Shown here in pieces: positions 1,018 through 30,894 of a stretch of DNA of 39,361 nt. The notes below the pieces were generated by a model, which ran no database searches, was not told the DNA's origin, and saw nothing but the letters and a program-made list of their open reading frames with translations. Each line of letters begins with the position of its first letter. The first letter of the stretch is position 1. The DNA comes from a virus, in IMG/VR virus record IMGVR_UViG_3300046804_000658, positions 1 to 39,361 of that record, one strand, 5' to 3'. The position numbers and the translations under genes are program-made.

Positions 1018-1034
1018 AACCACGAAGGAGCTAA
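1018..1034 (+). promoter_or_regulatory. Shared 17-base leader with Shine-Dalgarno
   Basis: The sequence AACCACGAAGGAGCTAA lies directly before the MoxR gene start at 1037. The identical 17 bases recur at 18387-18403 before the 131-residue replication-block gene. It contains a strong Shine-Dalgarno (AAGGAG). An inverted match to this element lies in the 3' non-coding stretch at 22791-22825. Confidence 0.75.
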
Positions 1035-1036
1035 GC

Positions 1037-2466: not shown

Positions 2467-2686
2467 GTACTACGTAGCGTGGGCTGGAGAAGATAACCCC
2501 GGATGCGGCGTGTTCACGCGTGATAAACGTGAGCCTGTGTTGTTCAAAGTATGGCGTGTTAACCAGAGAGAAGGGAGTGAAGCAGTAACAGAAGCAATGA
2601 CGAAAGATGAAGCAAACGAGATGCTGCGCAAAATTAAGTTGTTAGACCCACCAGCACAAAAGGAGCTAGACCTAAAATGGCGATAG
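2459..2686 (+). CDS. Small hypothetical protein
   Basis: This 75-residue protein starts with a beta-rich part (AEYYVAWAGEDNPGCGVF) followed by a helical charged part (MTKDEANEMLRKIKLLD). It overlaps the gene before it by 8 bases and the VWA gene after it by 10 bases. GGAGG about 8 bases before ATG 2459 is the ribosome-binding site. The family is not recognised. Confidence 0.65.
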   Translation: MAEYYVAWAGEDNPGCGVFTRDKREPVLFKVWRVNQREGSEAVTEAMTKDEANEMLRKIKLLDPPAQKELDLKWR

Positions 2687-3867
2687 ATAAAGAAGAACGC
2701 AAACTTAAGAAAGTCAAGATCAGCCTGATGCGTAACCCTGAGTTCGCAATGTGGTCAGGCATCTTGATGGTAGGCAAGACCGCTATCGTGGACAACATAC
2801 CTACCGCATGCACTAACGGACGCGACGAGTACTACGGTCGTGAGTTCGTCAAGGTGCTAGATGAGAAGGAGCTAGCCTTCGTCGTACTGCATGAGGCTAT
2901 GCACAAGGCGTATCGACACCTGACTACTTGGCAAAAGCTGTACAAAGAAAACCCTATGCTTGCTAACGCAGCATGTGACTACGTAATCAACATTCAGCTG
3001 AAAGACCTAGACCCTACCGGCAAGGTGCTGAAGTTCCCTGTCATTGGTGGTAAGCAGATAGGTCTAGTCGATGATAAGTATCGAGGCATGAACGCTAAGC
3101 AAGTCTTTGATCTGTTGAAGCAAGACATGGAGAAAGGCGGCGGTGGCGTGGGCGATAGCTTCGATGAGCATGACTGGGACGGTGCTGAAGGACTGACCGA
3201 CGAGGAGAAGCGTGAGCTTGAGCGTGAGGTAGACCAAGCGTTACGGCAGGGGGCTATGGCGCACAAGAAACTCAAGGGTGAAGGTGCGGGTGGCATCAGT
3301 CGTGAGTTGCTCGACATGTTAGAGCCTAAAGTTAACTGGCGCGAGGTGCTGCGCGAGTATGTCAAATCTATTTGCAAGGGGAAGGACGCATCATCATGGC
3401 GACGAGTAAACAGACGGTTCCTATCTGGCGACACTTACATGCCTACGCTAGTAAGCGAGAAGGTCGGGCATCTAGTCATCGCCGTGGACACAAGTGGTTC
3501 TATCGGGGGTCGGGAGTTAGCAGACTTCCTGTCAGAAGTTAAAGGCATTGCAGAGGAGGTTACACCTGACAAGGTAGACCTACTGTATTGGGATGGGGAG
3601 GTAGCAGCGCATGAAGAGTACGACTCTTATTCTGTGGGTACGCTCGTGGGTTCAACGAAGCCAAAGGGCGGTGGCGGTACTTCGCCTAGTTGCATTACTC
3701 GCTATCTTAAGAATAAGAACATCAAGCCTGAGTGCAGCATCGTGCTCACCGACGGATACGTTGGTTCGGATTGGGGTGGGGACTGGGACTCGCCCGTACT
3801 CTGGGTCATTTGCGGCGGTAACACTGTCACTTCACCAGTGGGTCAGACTATTCACATTAATGACTGA
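2677..3867 (+). CDS. Metallopeptidase-like plus VWA domain protein
   Basis: This 396-residue protein has two parts. The N-terminal part carries HEAMH at residues 72-76, the HExxH zinc site of the DUF2201_N putative metallopeptidase family. A Gly/Glu-rich linker follows. The C-terminal part is a von Willebrand A-like domain with a MIDAS motif DTSGS at 271-275 and a later LTDG. VWA proteins of this kind pair with MoxR ATPases, here encoded at 1037. The substrate is unknown; proteolysis or metal-dependent remodelling of a host or phage complex is the likely type of action. AAGGAGCTA at 2660-2668 is upstream of the start. Confidence 0.85.
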   Translation: MAIDKEERKLKKVKISLMRNPEFAMWSGILMVGKTAIVDNIPTACTNGRDEYYGREFVKVLDEKELAFVVLHEAMHKAYRHLTTWQKLYKENPMLANAACDYVINIQLKDLDPTGKVLKFPVIGGKQIGLVDDKYRGMNAKQVFDLLKQDMEKGGGGVGDSFDEHDWDGAEGLTDEEKRELEREVDQALRQGAMAHKKLKGEGAGGISRELLDMLEPKVNWREVLREYVKSICKGKDASSWRRVNRRFLSGDTYMPTLVSEKVGHLVIAVDTSGSIGGRELADFLSEVKGIAEEVTPDKVDLLYWDGEVAAHEEYDSYSVGTLVGSTKPKGGGGTSPSCITRYLKNKNIKPECSIVLTDGYVGSDWGGDWDSPVLWVICGGNTVTSPVGQTIHIND

Positions 3868-9164: not shown

Positions 9165-9177
9165 CACAAGGAGCTAT

Positions 9178-10134
9178 ATGAAAGTTGTAGTCCAAAACTA
9201 CTACGAGTTCATCACTCGTGACGGGTACTTATTCAAAGAACCACAAAGTGACATAGGTCACAACCTGCTCAAACCTTGGAATGATCTATTCCTAGCGGCT
9301 GACGATCTTGGTATCAAGCTGTACACACCTGACCAACTTACACCGGCTATAGCTAGTCGCCCGAGAGAAGAGGTAGACCTAGCGATCTATATGGATGTGC
9401 CGAGAAGCAGGGTACCAGCAAAGAAGTCGATGCTGATTATCTACGAGCCGCCCTTCCTGATACCTGAAAACTGGGAGCCGGTGCTGCATGACTCCATGGA
9501 TAGGGTCATGACGTGGAACGACAACTTGATAGACAACAAGAAGTTCTTTAAGAACAACTTCACCGCCGAGCTAACCGGTGTACAGCATACGCTATCGAAG
9601 GAGCAGTTTTTCCTACGCAAGCCACTGGTGATGATGCAGACACACAAGAACCACCCTCACAAGAACTGTCTGTATCCCCGCCGCATAGATGCCATCTTAT
9701 TCTTTGAACGCACCGCTCCCGCTGAGTTTGATCTGTACGGACGTGGGTGGGATGGGCGACCGTCAAACCGTGGGGCTGTGACTAACAAGCTAGAGACACT
9801 CAGCAACTATAGGTTCTGCGTGGCCTACGAGAACTGCGACGATGCACCGGGCTACGTCACAGAGAAGATGCTGGACTGTCTGCTGGCAGGCGTCGTGCCT
9901 ATCTACTGGGGCGCACCTAACGTCACCGACCACATACCTAAAGAGTGCTTTATCGACGTGCGAGACTTTGATTCGTACGAGGAGCTACTTAAGTTTGTAC
10001 GCGACGTGGACTACACACAGTACCTAAAGTACCTAGGGGCTATCAACACATTCCTAGCCAGCGAGAAGTCACAGCAGTTTAGGAACGACTGGATTGTCGA
10101 TCAGATGCTACACCACATACAGGAGCTAGCATGA
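9178..10134 (+). CDS. GT10-family alpha-1,3-fucosyltransferase
   Basis: This 318-residue protein carries the diagnostic GT10 donor-binding motif at residues 217-246: YEN, then GYVTEK at 225-230, then AGVVPIYWGAP. GT10 enzymes move fucose from GDP-fucose to GlcNAc-type acceptors by inversion and are best known from animals, plants and Helicobacter. AAGGAGCTAT precedes ATG 9178. It lacks a membrane anchor, so it should be cytoplasmic. It could alter host surface glycans or decorate a virion protein; GDP-fucose must come from the host, since no synthesis genes are visible here. Confidence 0.85.
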   Translation: MKVVVQNYYEFITRDGYLFKEPQSDIGHNLLKPWNDLFLAADDLGIKLYTPDQLTPAIASRPREEVDLAIYMDVPRSRVPAKKSMLIIYEPPFLIPENWEPVLHDSMDRVMTWNDNLIDNKKFFKNNFTAELTGVQHTLSKEQFFLRKPLVMMQTHKNHPHKNCLYPRRIDAILFFERTAPAEFDLYGRGWDGRPSNRGAVTNKLETLSNYRFCVAYENCDDAPGYVTEKMLDCLLAGVVPIYWGAPNVTDHIPKECFIDVRDFDSYEELLKFVRDVDYTQYLKYLGAINTFLASEKSQQFRNDWIVDQMLHHIQELA

Positions 10135-12607: not shown

Positions 12608-12916
12608 ATGGCAACACCAGAAGCTAAAGTCAAAACCGCTGTCATAAAAATACTGAAGGCAAATAACGTCTACTACTTTTTTCCGGCTACCCACGGTTAC
12701 GGTCGTTCTGGTGTTCCTGATATTGTTTCTTGTGTTCGTGGTCGGTTTGTAGCCATCGAATGCAAGGCTGGTAACAATAAACCCACTGCACTGCAAGAAC
12801 GTGAGCTAGATAATATACGCAGAGCGAGGGGTATAGCGGTAGTGATTAACGAAAATAATATTGATCTACTAGAAACTATCCTAAAGGAGCTAAACCATGG
12901 AGAAGTACAGAGCTAG
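12608..12916 (+). CDS. VRR-NUC domain nuclease
   Basis: This 102-residue protein is a stand-alone VRR-NUC (PD-(D/E)xK) domain. It shows GYGRSGVPDIVSCV with the catalytic Asp, then FVAIECKAG, which supplies the E-x-K pair, and a final VVINENNIDLL strand-helix. VRR-NUC proteins cut branched DNA and resemble Holliday-junction resolvases, so it probably resolves replication or recombination intermediates. It opens the replication block and overlaps the next gene by 20 bases. Confidence 0.85.
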   Translation: MATPEAKVKTAVIKILKANNVYYFFPATHGYGRSGVPDIVSCVRGRFVAIECKAGNNKPTALQERELDNIRRARGIAVVINENNIDLLETILKELNHGEVQS

Positions 12917-13391
12917 TGTACGCACCATACTATCCCGTATAGAGTCGCACCCCGACGAGTTCAGAGAGCACTTCGGTAAGTGGGAAGATATACAGAACGC
13001 TGTGGCTGACCGCATAGGTGGAGAGCGCAACCGCCTGCGTGGCCTGACCGACGAAGAAGTTGAAGCCATATTCAACAAGCTAAAAGAACACATATGGGGG
13101 CCACAGTTCGATACGCACGTCATGGAGAAAGTGCTAGACCCACAAAGAGAAGAACGTAGTTTAGACGCATACAATATTTCTCTTGGTAAAAGCGGACTGA
13201 AAGTAAACCCTTACGGATGGAACGACCCCAGACTACTACAAGCAATAAAGCCAGAGGAAATTTACGCAGTCCCCGACCCCATGGCAAGACAAAAAGCCGA
13301 GCTACAAAAAATATACGAAGAGCAAAGACGCCAGCAAGCGGAGCAGAAAGAATCCGTGATGCAAAAGTTAATCAACAAACTAAAACCATGA
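12897..13391 (+). CDS. Hypothetical protein upstream of polymerase
   Basis: This 164-residue helical protein (IGGERNRLRGLTDEEVEAIF...) has a Gln/Lys/Glu-rich C-terminal coiled-coil segment (KAELQKIYEEQRRQQAEQK). AAAGGAGCTAAACC gives a strong ribosome site for ATG 12897 although it lies within the nuclease gene end. The stop overlaps the polymerase start by 4 bases. It may be an accessory protein of the polymerase by position; no motif supports this. Confidence 0.65.
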   Translation: MEKYRASVRTILSRIESHPDEFREHFGKWEDIQNAVADRIGGERNRLRGLTDEEVEAIFNKLKEHIWGPQFDTHVMEKVLDPQREERSLDAYNISLGKSGLKVNPYGWNDPRLLQAIKPEEIYAVPDPMARQKAELQKIYEEQRRQQAEQKESVMQKLINKLKP

Positions 13392-15411: not shown

Positions 15412-16079
15412 CTTTAGCGTGGTCGTACAGCAGCCTAAAGACTTTCGATCAGTGCCCGAAGAAGTACTACCATCTGCGTGTACTAAAGGATGTAAAAGAT
15501 GCGGACTCTACGGCAACCATATACGGCAAGGAGTTGCACACAGCTGCTGAAAACTTTATCAAAAGTAATGAAGCCATCCCGCCAAAGTTTAGCTTTATCG
15601 CGCCGACACTGGAAGTTCTCCGCAATATTGATGGAGAGAAGCACTGTGAGATCAAACTTGGCGTGGCGAAGAGGGGCGGTAAGTTTGCCCCCTGCGACTT
15701 CTTTGCGAAAGATGTCTGGTGGCGAGGAATAGCAGACCTACTGATTATTAACGAACAGAAACAGCAGGCATGGCTTGTTGACTATAAGACAAGTAAGAAC
15801 GCAAAGTACGCTGACACGAAGCAGCTAGACCTGCTGGCGGGTGCTGTGTTTACACACTTCCCAAAGGTAGTTAATATAAAGTCAGCCCTGCTCTTTGTAG
15901 TCAGTAATGAGATGGTTAAGAAGGAACATGAGTACATCATGAAGTCCTCGTACCTGAACTGTATGGAGCCTGAGCTAACCAAACTAGAAGGTGCTATGCA
16001 AAACAACGTCTGGAACCCGAACGCTGGGCCGCTGTGTAAGTTTTGCCCGGTAACAGAGTGTGCACATAATAGGAGCTAA
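15408..16079 (+). CDS. Cas4/RecB-like PD-(D/E)xK nuclease
   Basis: This 223-residue nuclease starts WSYSSLKTFDQCPKKYY, the N-terminal signature of RecB/Cas4 nucleases. It has GIAD (Asp110) and VDYKTSK (Asp125, Lys127) as the catalytic core. Cys16 and the C-terminal CKFCPVTEC (Cys210, 213, 218) match the four-Cys arrangement that holds a 4Fe-4S cluster in Cas4/AddB-type enzymes. There is no CRISPR array or cas gene here, so it probably processes DNA ends in recombination or host DNA degradation. Confidence 0.85.
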   Translation: MTLAWSYSSLKTFDQCPKKYYHLRVLKDVKDADSTATIYGKELHTAAENFIKSNEAIPPKFSFIAPTLEVLRNIDGEKHCEIKLGVAKRGGKFAPCDFFAKDVWWRGIADLLIINEQKQQAWLVDYKTSKNAKYADTKQLDLLAGAVFTHFPKVVNIKSALLFVVSNEMVKKEHEYIMKSSYLNCMEPELTKLEGAMQNNVWNPNAGPLCKFCPVTECAHNRS

Positions 16080-16080
16080 C

Positions 16081-16404
16081 ATGAGTGAAGAGCTAAGCCA
16101 AGAATCCGTAGACGCAGCAATCATTTTAGAGAACAAAATCAAAGAGCGCGTTCAGGAAATAGTAGTGTACGAAATAAACAAAACGGTAGTTAACATCATA
16201 GGTAAAGTATTCAAACAACAGCAAGAAGCCATGATGATGGAGATAGCTATTAAGCTTGGCCAGATAATGCGGACGACAGAGAAAGAGCACCGCAGGCCGT
16301 TGTGGGATAGCAAGCCTGAAGATTTTGGTCTGAGTGCACAGGAGCTTAATACTCACATGCTGGGTACAAAGGAAGAAGATCATGCCATACACAAAGTCCC
16401 CTAG
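16081..16404 (+). CDS. Hypothetical coiled-coil protein
   Basis: This 107-residue protein has a long N-terminal amphipathic helix (AIILENKIKERVQEIVVYE...) and Met-rich continuation, with an acidic/His C-terminus. ATG 16081 has AGGAGCTAAC directly before it and lies one base after the preceding stop. It overlaps the next gene by 23 bases in another frame. Function unknown; oligomerisation through the helix is likely. Confidence 0.65.
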   Translation: MSEELSQESVDAAIILENKIKERVQEIVVYEINKTVVNIIGKVFKQQQEAMMMEIAIKLGQIMRTTEKEHRRPLWDSKPEDFGLSAQELNTHMLGTKEEDHAIHKVP

Positions 16405-18222: not shown

Positions 18223-18407
18223 TTTTCTAACGAAGTGTTGTAAGATAAAGTTTCGTGCTGATGATCGAGCAACGAACGCCAAGCGGTGTGTGGCGAGTAA
18301 CTACCGCAGCAGGGGCCGGGCCAAAGCCAGTATAGGGTTTGTACGTTTACCTATATATGACCTCCTACCCGGTGACCCTGCGTTTCAACCACGAAGGAGC
18401 TAAACCA
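18223..18407 (+). other. Non-coding leader region with possible hairpins
   Basis: These 185 bases hold no convincing gene and form the longest gap of the left arm. Two imperfect hairpins can be drawn: 18250-18277 (cgtgct pairing with agcaacg, one bulge) and 18283-18307 (gcggt pairing with accgc). An A/T-rich segment near 18334-18360 could include a -10 box, but I find no well-spaced -35/-10 pair. It probably holds the promoter for the ssDNA-binding/primase unit. The final 17 bases before the start repeat the leader at 1018. Confidence 0.45.
18387..18403 (+). promoter_or_regulatory. Second copy of the 17-base leader
   Basis: AACCACGAAGGAGCTAA is identical to 1018-1034 and places the Shine-Dalgarno 9 bases before ATG 18408. 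The surrounding bases differ between the two copies, so the conservation is limited to the leader itself, as expected for a functional element. Confidence 0.75.
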
Positions 18408-18803
18408 ATGAGTGATACGTCAGTGAATCAGCTGGCCTCTATCTACCTCAAAATACGTGACGAGCGGGAAAAAATAAAAACCGCGTACGAAGAGGAAGAT
18501 AAAAAGCTAGCTGAGCAGATGGCTGTTGTCGAAGCCGAAATGCTAGAGGTGTTCAGGGACACCGAGTCTACTAGCATCAAGACCCCTACTGGTACCGTCA
18601 TACGTCGTGTAGCTACACGCTACTGGACTAACGACTGGGACACCATGTACAACTTCATCCGAGATAACGATGCGTATGGTTTGCTTGAGCGCCGTATTCA
18701 TCAGACTAACATGAAGCAGTTCTTGGAAGAGAACCCTGACCAGTACCCACCCGGCATGCTAGCCGATAGCCAATATAAGATAACCGTAAGGAGAAGCAAA
18801 TGA
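18408..18803 (+). CDS. Hypothetical coiled-coil protein of the replication block
   Basis: This 131-residue protein begins with a long charged helix (about residues 8-50, REKIKTAYEEEDKKLAEQ), likely a coiled coil. A compact basic/aromatic domain follows (VIRRVATRYWTNDWDTMYNF). ATG 18408 is set by the strong ribosome site of the shared leader; the frame from 18339 has none. It overlaps the putative ssDNA-binding gene by 4 bases. A nuclease-inhibitor or single-strand-binding accessory role is possible from position, but no family is recognised. Confidence 0.75.
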   Translation: MSDTSVNQLASIYLKIRDEREKIKTAYEEEDKKLAEQMAVVEAEMLEVFRDTESTSIKTPTGTVIRRVATRYWTNDWDTMYNFIRDNDAYGLLERRIHQTNMKQFLEENPDQYPPGMLADSQYKITVRRSK

Positions 18804-19773: not shown

Positions 19774-22605
19774 ATGGCTAACTTCGACTTGTTAGATACA
19801 GTACTTGCCCCCGAAGGGTGGTACGCCGTTGTAGGTATCAAAGGCAAGAAAGTTGACCAGCACCTTGTAGAGACTAGAGAAGAAGTAGATGACTTAGTCG
19901 AGGAGCTTCTATCCCAAAAATTTGACGTGTACTTTGGTTGTGCCAAATATGCAACGGGGGAAAACCGCACCAAGGACAACGCTACCTACTTCAAAGCACT
20001 GTGGGTAGACATAGACTGCGGTGAGGAGAAGGCCGCTTCCGGGGATGGTTACGTAGACCAAGCCACCGGACTACAAGAGCTGCAACGCTTCTGCAAAACT
20101 ATCGGATTGCCCAGACCCGTCGTTGTAAATTCTGGGCGCGGTATCCATGCCTACTGGCCTTTTACCGAGGTGGTGGGTAAGGACAAGTGGGTGCCGATGA
20201 GCGACCGGCTTAAAGAGCTATGCCGCATCCATGAGCTGTTGGTAGACCCTGCATGCTTCGAGCCAGCGCGCATCCTACGGGTGCCGGGGACTTTGAACTT
20301 CAAGGACAACCCAGCCTCTCCGGTTACTGTAATAGCTGGAGCCAACGCTACTGAGCCCGGTGAGCTACACACTACGCTGGGTGTTACAGAAAAAAAATTT
20401 ACTCCGCGTCGGCAGGTACAGCGCAGCGCCCTGACTATGTCTTTGATGGGCAACCGCATCTCTAAGTTCAAGACGATCATGCTGAAGTCTGCGAACGGCG
20501 AGGGCTGTAACCAGCTACTACATTGCTATCAGAATCAGGATTCTATTAGCTATAACCTATGGCGCAGTGCTTTATCCATAGCGGCGTTCTGTGAGGAAGG
20601 CACCACAGCTGCCCACAAGATGTCGGAGAACTACCCCGGCTATGACCCTGAAGAAGTAGAAATAAAAGTACAAGACCTGCAGCGCAAAGGCGGCCCACAT
20701 TTTTGCGAGACGTTCGAAAAAGAAAACCCCGACGGGTGCGATGGTTGCCAGCACAAAGGCAAGATCACTACACCTATTACGCTAGGTAAAGAGATAGCGG
20801 AAGCTGAGAAGTCCCAAGATGGGACTTACGTGGTCGAGGACGAAGAAGAGCAAGTTTCTTACAGTATCCCGTCGTTCCCGTTCCCCTACTTCCGTGGCAA
20901 GGCTGGCGGCATTTACCGGTCAAGCCCCGAGGATGAGGAGCCAGTGCTGATCTACGAGCATGATCTGTACGTGGTTAAGCGCATGAAAGACCCAGAGATA
21001 GGGGAGGTTGCGTACATCCGGTTGCACCTGCCACAGGACGGCGTCAAGGAGTTCACGATGGCAGCCAGTGCTTTGTTAGGAAAAGACGAGCCTAAGAAGT
21101 TGCTGGGTCAGCACGGGGTCATCGGGCACAAGGGGCAGATGGATAACATTGTAAGTTTTTTGGTCAGCTCTATTAAAGACATACAACTATCAAAGAAGGC
21201 AGAGATTATGAGAACACAATTCGGATGGGCAGACAACGACAGCAAGTTCATCATCGGCGACCGTGAGGTCACGGCAGACAACGTCTACTACAGCCCCCCG
21301 TCCACGCACACCGCAAACATCGCGCAACACATGGTGGCTAGGGGGACGTTAGAAAAATGGAAAGAAGTATTCAACATGTACTCCCGCCCCGGTCTGGAAG
21401 CTAATGCGTTTGCTGCACTTACTGCGTTTGGCTCCCCGCTGCTGAAGTTCATGGGGTTGAGCGGGGCCATCATCAACGTCATCTTCAAGAACTCTGGTAG
21501 TGGTAAGTCCACCACGTTGTACATGTGCAACAGCGTCTGGGGGCACCCACATAAGCTAGCCTCCATCCCTAGCGACACCATGAACGCCCGTATGCACAAG
21601 CTGGGCGTGATGAACAACCTGCCCTTCACCATGGACGAGATCACGAACATGAAGGCTGAGGACTTCTCTAACATGGCCTACGCTATGTCGCAGGGGCGGG
21701 GCAAGGACAGACAGAAGGCGTCGGCTAACGAGCTGAGGGCTAACAACACCACGTGGGGCAACATATCTTTAACCTCAGGCAATGCTAGCTTCTACGAGAA
21801 ACTTGCCAGCTTGAAGGACAGCCCGGATGGGGAGCGCATGCGCTTGGTCGAGTACGAGATCGGCTACAGCAACGCTGTATCGCTGGAAGAAGGCAAGCAG
21901 ATGTTCGACCATCAGCTACTGGAAAATTACGGTCTAGCTGGCGAGGTATACGCACAGTGGCTGGTCGGCAACAAAGAGTCTGCTATTGAGCAATTGCTGG
22001 AGGTACAAGCCAAGATCGACAAAGAGCTGCGCCTGACTCAGCGCGAGCGGTTCTGGTCCGGGGTGGTTGCATGCAACATCATGGGTGGGCTGATCGCTAA
22101 GTCGCTGGGGCTGCATGACTACGACATGAAGGCTGTGTACCGCTGGGCATGCGAGATGATACGTGACATCCGCAAGGACAATGAAGCGCCTGTAGACGAC
22201 GCAGCTGGCATCATCGGTGACTTCATCAACCGCCACATGCGCAACATTCTGGTCGTGGACGGCGAGGCTGATGCTAGGACTAAGATGGCACCTGCTCCGA
22301 TCATGGAGCCCTACGGCGAGCTTATCATTCGCTACGAGCCCGACACCAAGCGCATGTACATCGTGAACAAGGCGTTCAAGAACGACTGCGTGGAGAGACA
22401 AGTTAACTACAAGCACACCCTAAGAGAGCTGCATGACAAAGGCATCTACAAGGGCAGCACCACAAGGCGCATGACTACAGGCACCAAGATTAAAGGCCCG
22501 CCTGTGCATGTGATGGAGTTTGACTGCAACACCCCTGAGTTCATTAACGTAGATACTTACGTGGAGAGCGCAAGTGAGGATAGAGGGCGTCAGCTTCCAA
22601 ATTAA
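19774..22605 (+). CDS. Primase-polymerase/helicase fusion
   Basis: This 943-residue replication protein has an N-terminal archaeo-eukaryotic primase-type domain: DID at 79-81, SGRGIH at 120-125 and RVPGTLNFK at 169-177, the three catalytic motifs of PrimPol-like enzymes. A Cys-rich patch (FCETF, GCDGCQHKG, about 310-330) may bind zinc. The C-terminal half resembles DUF927 helicases, with Walker A NSGSGKST (573-580) and MDE (620-622). It would make primers and unwind DNA at the fork for the family A polymerase. ATG 19774 is chosen because the longer frame from 19726 runs through the terminator stem. Confidence 0.8.
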   Translation: MANFDLLDTVLAPEGWYAVVGIKGKKVDQHLVETREEVDDLVEELLSQKFDVYFGCAKYATGENRTKDNATYFKALWVDIDCGEEKAASGDGYVDQATGLQELQRFCKTIGLPRPVVVNSGRGIHAYWPFTEVVGKDKWVPMSDRLKELCRIHELLVDPACFEPARILRVPGTLNFKDNPASPVTVIAGANATEPGELHTTLGVTEKKFTPRRQVQRSALTMSLMGNRISKFKTIMLKSANGEGCNQLLHCYQNQDSISYNLWRSALSIAAFCEEGTTAAHKMSENYPGYDPEEVEIKVQDLQRKGGPHFCETFEKENPDGCDGCQHKGKITTPITLGKEIAEAEKSQDGTYVVEDEEEQVSYSIPSFPFPYFRGKAGGIYRSSPEDEEPVLIYEHDLYVVKRMKDPEIGEVAYIRLHLPQDGVKEFTMAASALLGKDEPKKLLGQHGVIGHKGQMDNIVSFLVSSIKDIQLSKKAEIMRTQFGWADNDSKFIIGDREVTADNVYYSPPSTHTANIAQHMVARGTLEKWKEVFNMYSRPGLEANAFAALTAFGSPLLKFMGLSGAIINVIFKNSGSGKSTTLYMCNSVWGHPHKLASIPSDTMNARMHKLGVMNNLPFTMDEITNMKAEDFSNMAYAMSQGRGKDRQKASANELRANNTTWGNISLTSGNASFYEKLASLKDSPDGERMRLVEYEIGYSNAVSLEEGKQMFDHQLLENYGLAGEVYAQWLVGNKESAIEQLLEVQAKIDKELRLTQRERFWSGVVACNIMGGLIAKSLGLHDYDMKAVYRWACEMIRDIRKDNEAPVDDAAGIIGDFINRHMRNILVVDGEADARTKMAPAPIMEPYGELIIRYEPDTKRMYIVNKAFKNDCVERQVNYKHTLRELHDKGIYKGSTTRRMTTGTKIKGPPVHVMEFDCNTPEFINVDTYVESASEDRGRQLPN

Positions 22606-22768
22606 CTGGAAACAATTCAAGAAGGGGCACTCGTTCTTTTTACCCTGCTTAAATTGTTACACGACAACCGACATGGTGAAGAAAGTTACAAAGCGCCTGA
22701 AATACAACGTGGTAACTAAATGTGTTATCGAAGATGGTATACGGGGTGTACGTGTATGGAGAATATGA
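22574..22768 (+). CDS. Small basic hypothetical protein
   Basis: This 64-residue basic protein starts at GTG 22574 after GGAGAG and overlaps the primase end by 32 bases. It has aromatic and Cys residues (INWKQFKKGHSFFLPCLNCY) and a C-terminal IRGVRVWRI strand. The same layout (a SFF-PCL turn, a basic helix and a GVRVWR end) is common in tiny phage proteins encoded near replication genes, by my recollection. Nucleic-acid binding is plausible. It is the last gene of the left arm. Confidence 0.65.
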   Translation: MRIEGVSFQINWKQFKKGHSFFLPCLNCYTTTDMVKKVTKRLKYNVVTKCVIEDGIRGVRVWRI

Positions 22769-22778
22769 TATAAAGCAC

Positions 22779-22862
22779 CTGACGGCGTTGTTAGCTCCTT
22801 CGTCGTCAGTCTCCTTTCGTGGTTACACGATAGTTCCCCCGGCTTAGTCCGGGGGTTTTTTT
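22779..22862 (+). ncRNA. Candidate 3'-UTR small RNA with anti-Shine-Dalgarno loop
   Basis: Downstream of the last left-arm gene, a 9-bp stem (22779-22787 with 22801-22809, one G-U pair) encloses a 13-base loop TTGTTAGCTCCTT. Within it TTAGCTCCTT is the exact complement of the AAGGAGCTAA ribosome site used by several genes here. An unpaired segment at 22811-22825 (CTCCTTTCGTGGTTA) is complementary, with one bulge, to the upstream half of the 17-base leader at 1018 and 18387. The RNA would end at the terminator 22836-22862. This is the layout of a trans-acting riboregulator. Alternatively it is a stray inverted ribosome-binding site. Confidence 0.4.
22836..22862 (+). terminator. Rightward intrinsic terminator at the arm junction
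   Basis: A 7-bp perfect stem (CCCCCGG with CCGGGGG) and a 6-base loop CTTAGT are followed by seven T. It ends transcription of the left arm and touches the stop codon of the leftward giant gene at 22861. Read leftward, the stem is followed by AACTA and not by a T-run, so it is not expected to stop the virion operon efficiently. Confidence 0.9.
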
Positions 22863-25800
22863 ATTCTTTCGCCTCGTCCAGTATTTTTTGTAGCGCCTTC
22901 TCACGCAGCTGCTCTTCCGCAATATTTTCTTCAGTAAGCTCTCTACCACGCAGCTTAATCTTGTCTAGCTTACCTTCAAACGCATCGTCTAAAGTATCAG
23001 GCGTGATCTCCCAACCTTCTCGTGGGTACATCAAATTAAATTCATAAACCCTACGCGAAGCGTTTTCTATAAGTTCCTCATCCCCGCGACGCATAGCCTT
23101 GACCCACGCGTTTACGATAGCTTGCTTCCTATCTTCAATCTTTCGTTCTTCTTTCTTCAGGAAGGCGTTAAGGTCTTGAATTTCAGCCAGCCCTGAGGTT
23201 TTAAAGCCTAGCCCCTGCATAACTAACTGCCCCGCCGTAAACTCTTCTGCTTCACGGATAGGGTCTAGGTCTTTATCCAACACGCCTTCCGTGCTGTAGC
23301 GATATGCCACTGCGGGGGAACGAAGCATCTTCATTGGTATCCAACGCTCCATTGCTTTTAGCGTGTCGCCTTCTGACCACTCTCTATATGCTTGCGCTGT
23401 CATTTGATTAACAAGGCCAGCAAACGGAGCTATGTTATTGAACGTCATGAAGTCAGCTAGAGCGTTCATGTCAAATTCATTCGGTAAGTCACGGAACCAC
23501 AGACCACCTTCAGATATACCAGACGACAGGTTTATACCCGTGAACGCGTCCAGAAGCCCGTTAGCTAGAGCATCTGCTATCCTTACATCTGTGCCCGGTA
23601 TTTTTGCGTCACCAAAAGTTTCAGGTAGCCATACGTTGTTGAACCACCGTACGATGTTCAGCTGAGATATATCAACTGCTTCTGGGTCATCTTCATACAG
23701 GTTGTTAATAGCGGCTTGCAAAACACCGAACATCCACATCATTGTGCTAACACCAAACGCACCAGCCACCCCAGCGCCTAACGCGCCCATCATCATAGAA
23801 CCAAAGAAAGCATAGGCCGCGCCTTTACGTACGTCCGACGGCAGGCTGCCTGTCATCTCCTTAAAATTCATGTAGTAGTAGAACGTGGTGTACAACGAGT
23901 ATTTCTTAAACTGAAACGCCAGCCTAGCGATGGGCTGGTTAAGGAACGGTGGAGACTCGTCTGGTAAATAGCGGTATAGCGCTTCTTCAGTAATATTTTG
24001 CGCGTTGTCCACCGCCTCCATAGGCGACATACCTTTTTGCCTAGAAAGTTTATACGCCGTCAAGAACGTAATTTCTCGGGCTATACGCTCGCTGCCTTGG
24101 TGCAAAGAACCTGATACACGTACCATAGTGTCTAGCACTACTTCAGGCGTGGACATAGTTTTAGCTTTGTTGCCAAAGTACAGGTCAGCTGTTTGCGTAG
24201 ACTGGTCAGAGATTTGCCGTAAATCCATCTGTCGCACGGCGAACTGAAGCTCAGCGGGGGTAAGCCCCGTTAGAAGCTGCGCAGCTTTAGGGCTACGTGT
24301 TACCAGAGAAGAGCCAAAAGAGGGGAATGTATATTTAACATTACCTGCGCTGTCTACCCGTTTTACCCCTACCTGCGCTGGCATAGCAGCTAGCAGTTTT
24401 GTAAGCTCTTTAGTTGCTGCTACAGGACCAAAATATTTAATGAGTGTAGGGAATGATTTACCCGGTACACCCCATACGTTATTGAACACCGCCCGCATAT
24501 CTGTAAGCAGATACATGAACGTAAACTTAGTCGCAGCATTTACAACCTTATCCAGCATGCCGGGTTCTTGCGGTTGCGCGTATGAACCGTTGGTACGTCT
24601 TTCTAGTTCGTTGATGAGCAGCTCTAGGCGGTCACGCTTAGGGTTGTCACGGATGTTTTCCTGTGCAGCATCAAAGTTATTGTTAACCTGCTGTAAGTAC
24701 CGCATCTTTGCCAGCTGGTTTGCCATGCGCGTACCAGTCGAGATGAAGTTACGCAGCGCGTCACGAGAATAACCTGCCCGTGCTTTACGGGTGATAAACA
24801 TCTTGCGCATGCTGTTCTCAGGCAGCACAAGCAGCATAGACTGAAAAATATCATTTTTAAGCTGGTCTACAGCCGCAGTAGAACCTAGCGCAACAGCGTC
24901 TATTTTTGAAAAAATATTACGTAACGCGATATTCTCTTTAGCAATTTTCTTACGCAGCACTTCTGCTTCGTTACCTTTAGCAGCTTCTTTAGCAATTACA
25001 AGCTCTTCGTAAGTGCGTTTGTCTCCGCGCTTGTTACGTTCTTTTATTTGCTGCTTTATGAATTTGTCCCGTTGTTTGGCGCTGTCAAACATTTGGAAGT
25101 TTACATCTTTGCCTTTACCAAACTGAGCCCAGAATTCACCGTGGCGCATCAAAGGAAAATACGGCCCCTTACCCATGTTGCGTTCATAGGTAGTCTTTAA
25201 GTCCTCCCACAGCTTACCTTTGGGGGTAGTAGGGTCGTTAATACTTCCAGCTAAGTTTGATGTAGCTATCTTCTGCTTGAGTGTAGTGAGGAACAGCTGA
25301 TAGCTTTGCTTGTAAAAGTCTCGTGCGTTTTTATAAAGCTTCTGTTGTTTGGGGTTTAACGCATTCCACATGCGGTTTAGTTCCGGCACTGTGGTGTTAA
25401 CAGATGGGTCTACTTGTATGTCAGTAGACAAATTCATAATATCCGCCAGTGCGTCTTTTTCTTTCCTACCAAGTTTTGCCCATTCTGTAGCTATAGCTGT
25501 CATAGCGTTCATGGCATTTACACGGAAGGTGCCCATCTTGCGCGTGTTATCCCTAGCGTCTTTTAAACTCTGTATGCCATTTGCAATACCTATACGGTAA
25601 AGCACACTAGTAGGCGCTACCTTAATAAACGACTTAAGGAACGCCATGTCCAAGTTAGGGAACGCAGCGCTGACGTAATCACCTAAAGCTTTTGGCGTAC
25701 GCCCAGCACTTTGCACGGGGCCTATACGTTGAATAACCTGCCGGGCGTCCTGAGACGCTTTGAGGTCGCGTATTGCCGTGTTTACATTTTTAACTTGGCG

Positions 25801-28800
25801 TTTAGCCTCTAGTATAGATTTAGTGATGTCCTCGCCAAAGGCGGCTTCCATCTGCTCTATGCTAGGCTGCTCAGCTTTCATAATCTCGTGCGAGATAAGC
25901 ACGAGGTCTTTTAGCCCGGACTTTAGCTTAGGGTCTATACCAAATAGTTTCAGCAAGGCGTCAATAAAAATATCGAAGCCTGACTTCTTCTCCGATACGC
26001 CTTTGACTTCATTCAACAAAAACTGCTTCATCGCAGCGTTCGTCATACCGTAGGCGTAAAACTCTTGAATGTCCGTAAAAGCATCTGCTTCAGCGGCAAA
26101 CTTTAGTTCTGCGTTTACGCTCTTCTTGCTGTCATACGCTGCCTTTGCGCGTACCATCAAATCTTCTAGCGCGTTCACTGCCTCGACAAGGTTAGCTTCA
26201 ACCTCCATGCCGTTACTGCGCGCTGCTAGGACAAAATCTATTTTCTTACTGCCAGATACGTGCATAGCTTCATGGAGCACGATCTCGTTGTTAATACCTT
26301 GGTTCTCGTAGCTATCCCCGCGTACATACACCGTGCCACCTACGGTGGTAGGAGAAAACATACCAACAGTGCCTTTGTTTAGCATCTGTTTAGCAGTTTT
26401 GTCTTTTAGTTTGGTGTCTCTATCTACGACAACAAAATTAACATTACGCAACGTAGGCGCGTTGTCCCGCTGCAACAGACGTGCAGCCAGCATGGCTTCC
26501 AGCTCGTTAGGCGACTGGGCTATCTGTATCAATGCACCAGCTATTGTGTCTACGTCGTAGAAGCCCAGATCAGGTTCCATGTCTAGCTGCTGCTCAGCTA
26601 GGTACTCAGGACCTTTTCTACGGCGCGCGGGTAAAGCGCGCATACCACGGCGCTCTACCGGTTTTTCTTCTCGTATGGCGGCTACTTCTTCCTTGCGTTC
26701 TTCTTTAGGCGCTGTGGGTGGTACCTTCTCGGTCACCGTTTTTGTAACAGGCGCAACCTGTTGACGCACAATATCTTCAGCTACAGCTGCCTTGCCGTTG
26801 ATAAAATCCATGGTGTGCGCTGGGTTCTCAGGCACCACAAACATTTTTGCGCCGTCTATTTGGTTTTCGTGCCCTGCTAGTAAGTTTCCGTACACCCCTT
26901 TAGGTACATTTATGCAGCCAAAAGAGTAACGTGAATCTAGTGGGCCGGGTTTCTCCAGCGCAGCCAGACGCTGCTTAGCGTCTTTCTCTTTAGTCCATAC
27001 GGAATGAAACAGCGTGACTGAGTACTCACCGTCTATGGCTTTGTCCAGCACAAATACTTTGCCATAATCGTATGCGCCTGCCGTCTTGGCTTCGCTACCT
27101 CCACGTGCTGCATCACGCAGCCCAAGGTTAAATAGCCCAGCAGGGGTAATACGGTTTTGTACTACCTCAGTATTACCACGGTAAAAATCACCCATGGTTT
27201 TACCAAGCAGCACTTTACTTTGTGTAAGCAAAGAACCATCGGGGTTAAATACGTACAGGTTAGCACTGGGTTTGTCCGTAATGATAAACAGCTTGTTAGT
27301 GGCTTTAAGCCCTTTTTCAACTGCTGGGTATATAGTGGCGTAAGCCTGACGACCACCTTCAGACATACCTACAACATCGGCGGGGACCGTAGCTCTAACT
27401 TGTACAGTGCGTGATAACGTAGTGGGAGTAGCTACAGGTATAGTAGGCGTTATGAACGAAGTGTTTACCACCATGATAGCGGCTAACATACCTGCCTGTA
27501 GACGCTTGATAATGTCGTGCAGAACCCTAGAGACTGCATCCAGTCCCTCGTTCATTGCCTTTACTACATCCTCAACAAACTTACGCTTAGCAACTTCGTT
27601 GTAAGATGTTTCGCCGTAGTGCTCAGCAATAACGGCCTTATCTTCGTCGTCTAGCTGGTCATGTATAGCAGCGTCTTGCAGCTCTTCCTGCGCGTTACCT
27701 ACAGGCTCTTCCTCCAACATAGTTGCGGCTCTATCCGCTTTAGACATCGAGCTTCTTAGTAGCTGAGCGTTATAGTCTGTCCACCGTGTTTTCTCTTCAG
27801 GCGCTTTTTCTTTTTCACGGGCAGCTTTACCTTTTTCCTCCCACAACCCCTGATACTCAGCAAGCCATAGTGGCGTACCAAAAGTTTCCGTAACCGGACG
27901 AAGCACGGGTTTTAGTTCTTCTTTTACTTCTGTTTCTTTAGCTGGCCGTGCTTTCTTTACAGGTTCAGCAACAACTTCTTCTTCCGCCGCTCTTATTTTT
28001 TCTATAGCTTTCTTACGTTGCGCAGGGGTGGATAATGAGTCTGGTAAGGGAGGCAGCGTAGTAAATTTTTCACGGCCTTCAGCCAACGCCTTGGCGCGTT
28101 CTTGCTCCGCAGGTTTTAAACTCTTTATGTATTTGCCAGCTTGTGCGTAAGCAACAATAGGACGGGACTTAAATTTTTGAGCCGCTTTATACAGACTAGC
28201 GCGAAGTACATCTATAGATAAATCCCGCAATGCTTCACGATAAGCTTTTTCTTCTGCGGTGCGCGCTGCTATACCAAAGTAGTCCCCACTAGCGCTACGC
28301 TCTAATTTACGTACGGCACTAATTTCGGCTAGCGTATCTCTGGTAAGGTTAATAACATCGGCAGCTTGTTCTACGCGCTCTGCCCCAGTCTTAGCAGCTT
28401 TTGATACCTCACGCCCTCCACCCGGAGCGCGTCTACGAGGTTCGCCCGCAGCCGTAGCACCAAACTCCGCAATGAGCTGCTGCTTTAGTTTTTCAGGCGA
28501 TGTTCTAGCTACGGTGTCTAAAATAGACGGGTCAACCTCTAGTTCTTCTTTACGCCCAGCTTCTAGTTCGAGGGGTGCGGCTGCCTCGGTGGGTTGCGCT
28601 GGTCTTTCCTCTTTTGCTTTGACGGCTTTAGGGGCTTCAGGGCCACGTGGTTTCTCCTCTACAGGCTGAACAACTTCAGGAACAACAGGTGCTTCCACCG
28701 CTTCGGTAGGGGCAGCTTCAGCAGCTGGCTCAATACGCTCCTCGGGTCTTTCTCCCACCATCGGAGCAGCAGGCGCGCGACGTTCAAAAGCAGGACGAGC

Positions 28801-30894
28801 ATCACGAGGAGGCAGTCCACCAAGTTCTTCCAGTCGGGCATAAGCAGCCTCTTGATATGCTTCAGGTGTAGGGTTAGTAGCTAGAGTGTCTCGCACCCAG
28901 CTAGCACCAAGGGTAAGACCAAGATCAGGGTAAGGCTCTCTAGCAAACCCACGGGATATCGCACGTTCTGCAAGTTCTTGCTGTTCTACTAGTGCAGCAC
29001 GTTCCAGCTCTTCTCTTCCAGCAAGTTGTCTAACAGCGCTGCTAGCAGCACCCAGTCCTCTATCGATAGGGGTTGTAGGTAGCTCGGCGGCTCCAGCCTC
29101 TGCGCTAGGCACAGGAATGCCTCGCTCATCTGTGCTTGGCTCAGTGACAAAAGGTGGCGGCTCGGTCGTGGGAACATTGTCTCCCTCCATTTGAAGTGCG
29201 GCGCGTTCAGCCCGCCCGGCCATAGTCCGCGCTTCATCTTCAGCGGACTTACGTTGGGTAACTCTACCTTCTGCCCCTGTAACAGGTGGCTGTAAAGCTT
29301 GAATATCAGTCTGTGCCTGAGTTTGAGCTTGTTCAGGCGGCATGCCTTGTTCTTGGTACGACTGCGCCAAAGCCTGCACACGAGGGTCAGTGGGCTCTAT
29401 CTCTAGCTCAGGGCGACGTGCTGCCTCCAACGCGGTCAACGGAGGACGTGCAGGTTCACCTTCTAGCTCTACACGACGTGCTTTTTCTAGCGCAGTCAGC
29501 CTAGGTCTATCTGATTGTAGGTAAGAATTTACATCCTGCTGTATAGCATCTGCCAGTGCGAAGTCAGGGCGCGCCTCTTGTATCTTCTCGATACCTTTAC
29601 TGAGTACTTTAGAGCCCCCAGCCATCAGGCCAGACTGCATCAAAGTCTGCACCGTGGTGTCGCCCACTTGCTGCAGATAGTCGCCAAATGTGGCGTTGGG
29701 TGAAAGACCGACAGAAGATAGGTCAGTTAAGAACTGCCCCGTGGTTGTAAGAATTTCACCGGGTAGCTCGCGCTTCAGGGTATTGCCAAGCCAGCCTTTG
29801 AGCACGTCGTTAGACATACCTTGCGTAGCCTGTCTGATCTTGTCCATCTGAAACTTAAGACCAAACTTCTCTCCGACTACTTCAAAGGCGGCGTACAACC
29901 CTGCACGAGTAGCTGCTGTAGCGCCCCCCAGACCTTTAGCCGTACCTTCTGCGTACTCCTGCCCGAATGATTGCGCAAACATTGACGCCAGCACAAGCCC
30001 TTCAGAGCCGGTCGCTACACCCCCAACAAGAGCAGGCAGCTGCTGGGCTATGGAATTAATCGCGCCTTCAAACATGCGCCCGGCATACACCGGGTTCTCG
30101 CCCATAGACTGCACGACGTTCCGAGCTTCGGCAGCACGCTCACCAAACCTAGTAGCAAACTCATCCGCCCCCAACAGGTCAGCTACAGCTTGGTTAATAC
30201 CCAACGCACCTTGCTTGTATCCCTGCCATCCAGCCATCGCGCCGCGCAAAACAGGGTTAGCGTTTTTGTACTGGTTGTAAATATCAAAATCAAATTTGGT
30301 AGGTTCTAGTGCGCCTTCGGCTTGTATAGCCTGCACTTCTTTACCCGGCACGACGCCCATCTCGGCAGCGCGCTGTGCCGCAGCACGAGCAAACTCAGGC
30401 TTCTCACCTTGCTGGATAAGACGTTGTGCACGTTCCTCGGCGGCTGGGGATAGGCGCGCAGCAGCCTCAGGTGCTCGCTCTGCCTGTTTATATTCTTGTG
30501 CCCGCTGGCGTATGACATCACCCACCGCACCGGGAGCCTTCTCCATGTTGGCGCGTTTCTTGGGTGAGGCAGCATCGTATTCTGCTTCAATAGCAGCACG
30601 AACTTCAGGGCGTAGAGGGGCTTTGCTAGGAGTTTGAACAGGCGCAGCGGGAGTTTTGCCGCTCATTACGCCCAGACCTTCCCCTGCCTGACTCATGATG
30701 GCAGAACCTAAGTCCTCCCCCATAGGTGACGTAGTAGCAAAGTCTTGCCTCGGCTTCTCTGCTTTTTTAGGTTCCGGCTTAGGCTCTGCTTTTGGGGTAG
30801 GCAGCTGTTTCAGCGCAGCAGCCATGTCGTCCCGACTCATACCGTCGGGGAACTCTACGGTACCTACACCTTCTACCTCAACATACTGTGCCAT
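22861..30894 (-). CDS. Giant virion protein with L,D-transpeptidase and HExxH domains
   Basis: This 2677-residue protein begins with a motif common in phage virion proteins (VEFPDGMSRDDMAAAL). Then come a Pro/Lys linker, an Ala/Gly-rich helical region (about 199-432), Pro/Glu-rich linkers (about 640-850) and a hydrophobic segment near 1136-1155. A YkuD-type L,D-transpeptidase domain spans about 1198-1365, with His1297 and catalytic Cys1327 in SFGCIN. An HEAMH zinc site lies at 1541-1545, with hydrophobic segments near 2355-2400. It is probably an internal protein ejected into the cell that modifies peptidoglycan and spans membranes. SHGC is changed to SFGC. It starts 4 bases after its neighbour's stop. 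Confidence 0.8.
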   Translation of the reverse strand: MAQYVEVEGVGTVEFPDGMSRDDMAAALKQLPTPKAEPKPEPKKAEKPRQDFATTSPMGEDLGSAIMSQAGEGLGVMSGKTPAAPVQTPSKAPLRPEVRAAIEAEYDAASPKKRANMEKAPGAVGDVIRQRAQEYKQAERAPEAAARLSPAAEERAQRLIQQGEKPEFARAAAQRAAEMGVVPGKEVQAIQAEGALEPTKFDFDIYNQYKNANPVLRGAMAGWQGYKQGALGINQAVADLLGADEFATRFGERAAEARNVVQSMGENPVYAGRMFEGAINSIAQQLPALVGGVATGSEGLVLASMFAQSFGQEYAEGTAKGLGGATAATRAGLYAAFEVVGEKFGLKFQMDKIRQATQGMSNDVLKGWLGNTLKRELPGEILTTTGQFLTDLSSVGLSPNATFGDYLQQVGDTTVQTLMQSGLMAGGSKVLSKGIEKIQEARPDFALADAIQQDVNSYLQSDRPRLTALEKARRVELEGEPARPPLTALEAARRPELEIEPTDPRVQALAQSYQEQGMPPEQAQTQAQTDIQALQPPVTGAEGRVTQRKSAEDEARTMAGRAERAALQMEGDNVPTTEPPPFVTEPSTDERGIPVPSAEAGAAELPTTPIDRGLGAASSAVRQLAGREELERAALVEQQELAERAISRGFAREPYPDLGLTLGASWVRDTLATNPTPEAYQEAAYARLEELGGLPPRDARPAFERRAPAAPMVGERPEERIEPAAEAAPTEAVEAPVVPEVVQPVEEKPRGPEAPKAVKAKEERPAQPTEAAAPLELEAGRKEELEVDPSILDTVARTSPEKLKQQLIAEFGATAAGEPRRRAPGGGREVSKAAKTGAERVEQAADVINLTRDTLAEISAVRKLERSASGDYFGIAARTAEEKAYREALRDLSIDVLRASLYKAAQKFKSRPIVAYAQAGKYIKSLKPAEQERAKALAEGREKFTTLPPLPDSLSTPAQRKKAIEKIRAAEEEVVAEPVKKARPAKETEVKEELKPVLRPVTETFGTPLWLAEYQGLWEEKGKAAREKEKAPEEKTRWTDYNAQLLRSSMSKADRAATMLEEEPVGNAQEELQDAAIHDQLDDEDKAVIAEHYGETSYNEVAKRKFVEDVVKAMNEGLDAVSRVLHDIIKRLQAGMLAAIMVVNTSFITPTIPVATPTTLSRTVQVRATVPADVVGMSEGGRQAYATIYPAVEKGLKATNKLFIITDKPSANLYVFNPDGSLLTQSKVLLGKTMGDFYRGNTEVVQNRITPAGLFNLGLRDAARGGSEAKTAGAYDYGKVFVLDKAIDGEYSVTLFHSVWTKEKDAKQRLAALEKPGPLDSRYSFGCINVPKGVYGNLLAGHENQIDGAKMFVVPENPAHTMDFINGKAAVAEDIVRQQVAPVTKTVTEKVPPTAPKEERKEEVAAIREEKPVERRGMRALPARRRKGPEYLAEQQLDMEPDLGFYDVDTIAGALIQIAQSPNELEAMLAARLLQRDNAPTLRNVNFVVVDRDTKLKDKTAKQMLNKGTVGMFSPTTVGGTVYVRGDSYENQGINNEIVLHEAMHVSGSKKIDFVLAARSNGMEVEANLVEAVNALEDLMVRAKAAYDSKKSVNAELKFAAEADAFTDIQEFYAYGMTNAAMKQFLLNEVKGVSEKKSGFDIFIDALLKLFGIDPKLKSGLKDLVLISHEIMKAEQPSIEQMEAAFGEDITKSILEAKRQVKNVNTAIRDLKASQDARQVIQRIGPVQSAGRTPKALGDYVSAAFPNLDMAFLKSFIKVAPTSVLYRIGIANGIQSLKDARDNTRKMGTFRVNAMNAMTAIATEWAKLGRKEKDALADIMNLSTDIQVDPSVNTTVPELNRMWNALNPKQQKLYKNARDFYKQSYQLFLTTLKQKIATSNLAGSINDPTTPKGKLWEDLKTTYERNMGKGPYFPLMRHGEFWAQFGKGKDVNFQMFDSAKQRDKFIKQQIKERNKRGDKRTYEELVIAKEAAKGNEAEVLRKKIAKENIALRNIFSKIDAVALGSTAAVDQLKNDIFQSMLLVLPENSMRKMFITRKARAGYSRDALRNFISTGTRMANQLAKMRYLQQVNNNFDAAQENIRDNPKRDRLELLINELERRTNGSYAQPQEPGMLDKVVNAATKFTFMYLLTDMRAVFNNVWGVPGKSFPTLIKYFGPVAATKELTKLLAAMPAQVGVKRVDSAGNVKYTFPSFGSSLVTRSPKAAQLLTGLTPAELQFAVRQMDLRQISDQSTQTADLYFGNKAKTMSTPEVVLDTMVRVSGSLHQGSERIAREITFLTAYKLSRQKGMSPMEAVDNAQNITEEALYRYLPDESPPFLNQPIARLAFQFKKYSLYTTFYYYMNFKEMTGSLPSDVRKGAAYAFFGSMMMGALGAGVAGAFGVSTMMWMFGVLQAAINNLYEDDPEAVDISQLNIVRWFNNVWLPETFGDAKIPGTDVRIADALANGLLDAFTGINLSSGISEGGLWFRDLPNEFDMNALADFMTFNNIAPFAGLVNQMTAQAYREWSEGDTLKAMERWIPMKMLRSPAVAYRYSTEGVLDKDLDPIREAEEFTAGQLVMQGLGFKTSGLAEIQDLNAFLKKEERKIEDRKQAIVNAWVKAMRRGDEELIENASRRVYEFNLMYPREGWEITPDTLDDAFEGKLDKIKLRGRELTEENIAEEQLREKALQKILDEAKE

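Follow-up and report, generated by a model that had tools for sequence, protein, structure and literature searches.

A candidate phage-encoded small RNA predicted to block Shine-Dalgarno sites of several early genes in a lineage of uncultured phages

Small RNAs acting on Shine-Dalgarno sites and the element described here

Temporal control in phages is usually attributed to polymerases, sigma factors, repressors, and antiterminators. Among the phage RNAs of known function covered in one review, most are from temperate phages (PMC12197685). The c4 RNA of P1/P7 is phage encoded and blocks translation of a phage gene by pairing its loops with the region where ribosomes bind; it acts on one gene (ant) in the immunity of temperate phages (PMC12197685). 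VpdS of VP882 and PreS of lambda are trans-acting small RNAs (sRNAs) that are encoded by temperate phages, linked to Hfq, and active in infection, and VpdS acts on phage as well as host mRNAs (PMC12197685). Among bacterial RNAs, LhrC, RsaE, and RNAIII have redundant C/U-rich single-stranded segments in loops and a linker that bind the Shine-Dalgarno (SD) sites of host targets by means of a UCCC motif (PMC4132741). The chromosomal RNAs of the families RF02278 (Betaproteobacteria toxic small RNA; reported at 57 to 92 nt [PMC4603805]) and ncS16 (RF02866) are short, with an unpaired UCUCCU segment and then a strong terminator.

Here, we analyzed a putative sRNA gene in IMG/VR record IMGVR_UViG_3300046804_000658, a tailed-phage genome of 39,361 bases that was covered in full (from here on, the window) and that is probably incomplete because relatives reach 67 kb. 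The element resembles c4 in being phage borne with a loop complementary to ribosome-binding regions of phage genes but differs in that it has its own promoter far from its targets and several predicted early targets. It differs from VpdS and PreS in being lineage-wide and in co-varying with early phage leaders. Unlike RNAs of the LhrC type, it carries CUCCUU instead of redundant UCCC motifs in loops and linker and is predicted to target the phage's own early genes, i.e., it would work alike without being a member. It shares the layout of RF02278 and ncS16 RNAs; however, its scores of 22.4 bits (gathering cutoff, 50) and 20.8 (cutoff, 48), respectively, place it outside both families. No Rfam family reached its threshold for the element, and Rfam gave no hit to C4 (RF01695), either in the window or in any of six related loci. 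These comparisons suggest that the element functions like SD-blocking sRNAs while lying outside RF02278 and C4, as judged by Rfam score, and outside the LhrC type, as judged by motif.

Anatomy and conservation of the RNA gene

The rightward early/replication arm of the phage encodes a MoxR-like AAA protein, a DUF2201/VWA protein, a family-A DNA polymerase, an SNF2 helicase, a Gam-like protein, and a DUF927 primase, while the structural (late) arm runs leftward; the element sits where the two arms converge (Table 1). Upstream, it adjoins a 64-aa ORF, whose C-terminal end (..GVRVWRI, stop) is kept in relatives and whose stop codon belongs to the RNA promoter. Downstream, the end of its terminator coincides with the stop of a 2677-aa late gene (22861-30894, minus strand). 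We note that the C-terminal third of this late protein matches a DarB-like antirestriction PHROG, that the MoxR-type gene and the DUF2201/VWA-like gene (2677-3867) are adjacent and retained as a pair in the relatives examined, and that the early arm has a fucosyltransferase-like (Glyco_transf_10) gene at 9178-10134.

An earlier note on this DNA had proposed an RNA at 22769-22862 comprising a 9-bp hairpin with an anti-SD loop, a second segment complementary to the same leaders with one bulge, and an intrinsic terminator directly downstream. Rechecking the sequence confirmed all three parts: the stem consists of 22779-22787 and 22801-22809, with one G-U pair among the 9 bp, the loop (22788-22800) reads TTGTTAGCTCCTT, and the terminator has a 7-bp all-GC stem followed by T7. 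The proposed 3' end agrees with that predicted from the terminator, but the proposed 5' end is probably not the real one, since 22769-22774 is the -10 box; the TGA stop codon also supplies the TG of an extended -10 promoter, and transcription is therefore expected to start near 22781. The same note had made expression dependent on the left arm being read to its end. This is not needed, as a conserved promoter-like box lies directly before the RNA, which thus does not require transcription of the whole arm. By sequence, the element has the promoter and the intrinsic terminator of a free-standing transcription unit. The folding energy of the element region is -36.5 kcal/mol (z = -4.6), and the RNA of the window contains two copies of CUCCUU. 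Hairpin 1 has three base pairs that are changed on both sides with pairing preserved within the near clade, which lends modest support to this predicted hairpin.

Table 1. Coordinates of the RNA gene and of its predicted target leaders in the window
Feature	Position	Strand	Remarks
64-aa ORF	22574..22768	+	3' of primase; start codon uncertain
Extended -10 promoter TGATATAAA	22766..22774	+	TGA is the ORF stop
Predicted small RNA, ~82 nt	22781..22862	+	5' end inferred from -10 box, 3' end from terminator
Hairpin 1	22779..22809	+	9-bp stem, 13-nt loop with anti-SD
Pairing site 1 TTAGCTCCTTCGT	22791..22803	+	10 bases in loop, 3 in stem
Pairing site 2 CTCCTTTCGTGGTTA	22811..22825	+	complements same leaders (TAACCACGAAAGGAG), one bulge
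Intrinsic terminator CCCCCGG-CTTAGT-CCGGGGG-TTTTTTT	22836..22862	+	stem 22836-22855
Predicted target: leader of MoxR/AAA gene (1037-2101)	1018..1036	+	13-nt complement at 1022-1034; rank 2/64, -11.5 kcal/mol; co-variation in relatives
Predicted target: leader of Gam-like gene (18408-18803)	18387..18407	+	13-nt complement at 18391-18403; rank 4/64, -9.9 kcal/mol
Predicted target: leader and start codon of gene 16081-16404	16071..16082	+	rank 1/64, -12.6 kcal/mol
Predicted target: leader of gene 12897-13391	12884..12893	+	exact 10-mer; rank 3/64, -10.2 kcal/mol
Predicted target: leader of DUF2201/VWA gene at 2677	2660..2669	+	weaker predicted site, rank 6/64
Predicted target: leader of glycosyltransferase-like gene at 9178	9168..9177	+	weaker predicted site, rank 7/64

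Using the primase, we gathered 80 related loci from viral contigs, many of them contig fragments with simple gene calling, and 17 genomes were added later. The search for the RNA gene in relatives that the earlier note had suggested was borne out: in a pattern check, the gene was present in the same position in 86 of 89 related loci, with a sigma70-type -10 box, an exposed CUCC, and a terminator. The three exceptions are two diverged copies and L027 (55% by primase), the only one without the RNA; the leader of its Gam-like gene has degenerated as well, so that both are lost together in this one case. L080, G051, and G054 have no CUCC. In nearly all relatives, the ORF stop is followed by the -10 box, a variable hairpin/linker with CUCC, and a GC-rich terminator. 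The -10 box is of the TATACT/TAAACT type (TAnA(C)T) and fixed at positions +3 to +8 after the stop of the 64-aa ORF; among 35 representatives with mutually dissimilar RNA sequences, its positions are conserved as T35 A35 n A33 C26 T30. TTGCGN is often found 17 nt upstream of it, but the -35 overlaps conserved codons, and its conservation is therefore not independent evidence. In the same 35 representatives, the anti-SD has a mean unpaired probability of 0.84, compared to 0.52 for the core; an unpaired complement of target SDs is thus present as in SD-blocking sRNAs, and here it extends to complements of 13 nt. Outside the -10 box, the exposed CUCC, and the terminator, the RNA sequence turns over fast.

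Beyond these relatives, no such RNA was found at the corresponding place in Pseudomonas phage Rollin, the nearest named phage by primase (30%), or in G039 (39% by primase), and blastn of the region against known phages gave no match. Two contigs from bacterial MAGs (GTDB), one betaproteobacterial and one actinobacterial, both carry the RNA; we considered these too weak a basis to name a host.

The region could be a mere terminator between convergent operons, in which the anti-SD motif reflects chance or pyrimidine bias. A good terminator is indeed present and ends the left arm; however, CTCC is present in 34 of the 35 dissimilar cores while GGAG, the same motif on the opposite strand, is present in 2, the -10 box is fixed after the stop codon, and the RNA co-varies with early leaders (see below), all of which make this explanation very improbable. 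We give even less credence to a function of the minus strand, as a 3' element of the late mRNA or an antisense of the RNA, or to a DNA- or protein-binding element. On the minus strand, AAGGAGCTAAC resembles an SD and there is a weak match to a promoter, and relatives have palindromic operator-like repeats that in a few genomes lie right at the RNA start, but the minus strand has no terminator there, and both the orientation and the conservation of the -10 box, the T-run, and CTCC are those of the plus strand.

Complementarity between the RNA and early leaders

To rank potential targets in the window, we scored 64 leaders by hybrid energy minus opening costs for short sites; a first accessibility-corrected scan had returned meaningless long duplexes and was replaced by this one. 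The exact 13-base complementarity of pairing site 1 to the MoxR and Gam-like leaders, as claimed in the earlier note, was found. The expectation that these two leaders would rank first was not upheld, as they came second and fourth with accessibility included (Table 1), and two further partners had been overlooked, one with an exact 10-mer (12884-12893) and one with a match of 11 bases (16071-16081). Thus, MoxR and the Gam-like gene, which opens the replication block, are good predicted targets but not unique, and 16081 and 12897 score similarly. All of the 14 best-scoring leaders are on the plus strand. A lone 13-nt match in 39 kb is unsurprising; what is unusual is that two genes are matched at their ribosome sites. 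Such complements to two gene leaders were rare among random 61-nt windows drawn from this genome (0.23%), and where a window contained CTCCTT, two 13-nt leader complements were seen solely inside the element.

For co-variation analyses, we used 29 long genomes with 14 clades as units and scored each leader containing an SD-like motif against its own and all other RNAs; scores were double-centered, which removes effects of RNA composition and leader strength. Using clade averaging, by which shared ancestry is handled only partly, the own RNA outperformed foreign RNAs on early-arm (plus-strand) leaders in seven metrics (P from <2e-5 to 4e-4, all ≤0.0005; 14 clades), with P = 0.00014 for the SW max and z = 5.4 for the exact-match top3. 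By contrast, late-arm leaders showed no own-RNA gain in the same 29 genomes and 14 clades, and some metrics were below expectation (p_down, 0.004 and 0.011 for two of them). Likewise, perfect complements of at least 11 nt were present in 34 of 968 early leaders versus 1 of 661 late leaders. Because the controls are themselves foreign anti-SD RNAs, the SD core alone does not account for the own-RNA advantage. These data support that pairing with early-arm leaders is conserved through co-variation. They also support the idea in the earlier note of a phage RNA whose C/U-rich loop faces the phage's own ribosome sites, as does conservation of the gene, but not its restriction to two targets.

Alternatively, the RNA could be a broad anti-SD RNA directed chiefly against translation in the host, and its matches to the phage's own genes could merely follow from SD cores that they have in common with host genes. 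CUCCUU could pair with many SD sequences, and the best sub-threshold Rfam hits are betaproteobacterial sRNAs with UCUCCU and a terminator, one family of which is toxic to E. coli. We nevertheless regard this as unlikely: the own RNA outdoes foreign RNAs even though these have the core as well, and it does so specifically on leaders of early phage genes, and flanking bases co-vary even where the SD differs, as in the Gam-like leader of G058 (AUGGAGCUAAC), with UGGAG as SD, and in L079, with the SD changed to GGAAC. The two roles could coexist.

Returning to pairing with the phage's own leaders, the largest shifts were found in the ortholog groups of DUF3310 (positive in 13 of 13 clades), MoxR (10/12), the Gam-like protein (9/14), and the 12897 family (6/9). 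In a sign test with correction for 41 groups, only the DUF3310 group (Pfam) would survive; a DUF3310 homologue was not found in the window. A separate test of MoxR leaders in 13 genomes gave P = 0.0001. In L006, the MoxR leader ACGACGAAGGAGCUAACA is complementary to the own RNA at 18 of 18 positions, and pairing site 2 (CTCCTTCGTGGTT) pairs 13/13 with the Gam-like leader. Other co-varying leaders are those of MoxR in G055 (AGGAGAAACAA) and L047 (GAAGGAGCUACA) and of the Gam-like gene in G048 (AGGAGCGAUUC) and L021 (CAAGGAGAUAG). None of the genes is a strong partner throughout all clades, complementarity is weak in the L026/L038 group, and in several genomes, foreign RNAs equal the best-leader score and the own RNA is mid-rank for the single best leader. 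The predicted target set thus appears to comprise more than two genes and to shift between clades. The Gam-like leader as a universal partner was rejected, as RNAduplex energies revealed no co-variation (diagonal, -19.0 versus -18.9); long duplexes dominated that test, and local pairing scores over all leaders were used instead. A high-scoring match in G057 proved to be the antisense of the RNA itself and was excluded from the clade tests.

A sigma70-like promoter of its own precedes the Gam-like gene in many relatives, with a short 5'UTR that is about the pairing site itself and would be suited to SD-blocking control. In L018, L052, G055, and G058, this promoter (TTGACA..TATAAT type) lies ~55 bp before the gene, its -35 overlaps the palindrome TTGACAnTGTCAA, and the 5'UTR is roughly 20-30 nt; other genomes, e.g., G048 and G032, likewise show the -35 TTGACA.

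A 13-14 bp palindrome, CTAACA(A/T)TGTTAG, is present in 5-21 copies in ~20 of the 29 genomes (e.g., L018/G007, L052/G018, L069/G023, G055, and G048), with ~0.007 expected per 60 kb. Almost all copies are in the early arm, where many overlap an ATG or precede a gene start by 20-40 or 110-150 nt, and they look like an operator or stoperator array. The palindrome is absent from the window, the near clade (L006, L012, G030, G036, and G041-G043), and L035. In the G050/G051/G054 clade, the palindrome CTAACAATGTTAG is located at the predicted start of the RNA (G051 8825, G054, and similar genomes).

Proposed mode of action and implications

Based on its layout, conservation, and co-variation, we consider it likely that the element encodes a stand-alone trans-acting sRNA that blocks the SD sites of several early phage mRNAs; as such, it would probably be a self-directed translational brake. 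We infer the transcription, repression, and timing of the RNA as follows. A host-type RNA polymerase would start at the extended -10 promoter that is built around the stop codon of the 64-aa ORF, and the intrinsic terminator would end transcription after ~82 nt. The exposed CUCCUU-containing loop and the linker would then pair with the SD region and start codon of several early-arm mRNAs, here those of MoxR/AAA at 1037 and the Gam-like gene at 18408 and probably those at 16081 and 12897. By analogy with CU-rich sRNAs such as LhrC (PMC4132741) and c4 (PMC12197685), this pairing would bar the 30S subunit, and translation of the targets would fall.

That the RNA times the transition from early to late expression is speculative, and the fact that late leaders are not matched fits a switch without being proof of one. 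More broadly, the RNA may be a lineage-wide post-transcriptional early-to-late switch, in which early mRNAs are shut off by seed pairing at ribosome sites, early leaders and seeds co-evolve fast, the target set shifts, and late leaders avoid complementarity; we hold this reading tentatively and with some doubt. In the part of the literature covered, we found no description of a phage RNA that is present across a lineage and co-evolves with the early leaders of the same phages. If the RNA acts as proposed, an RNA regulator would be common to a large lineage of uncultured phages, and its dozens of natural seed/leader pairs may offer a natural experiment on the co-evolution of an sRNA with its regulon.
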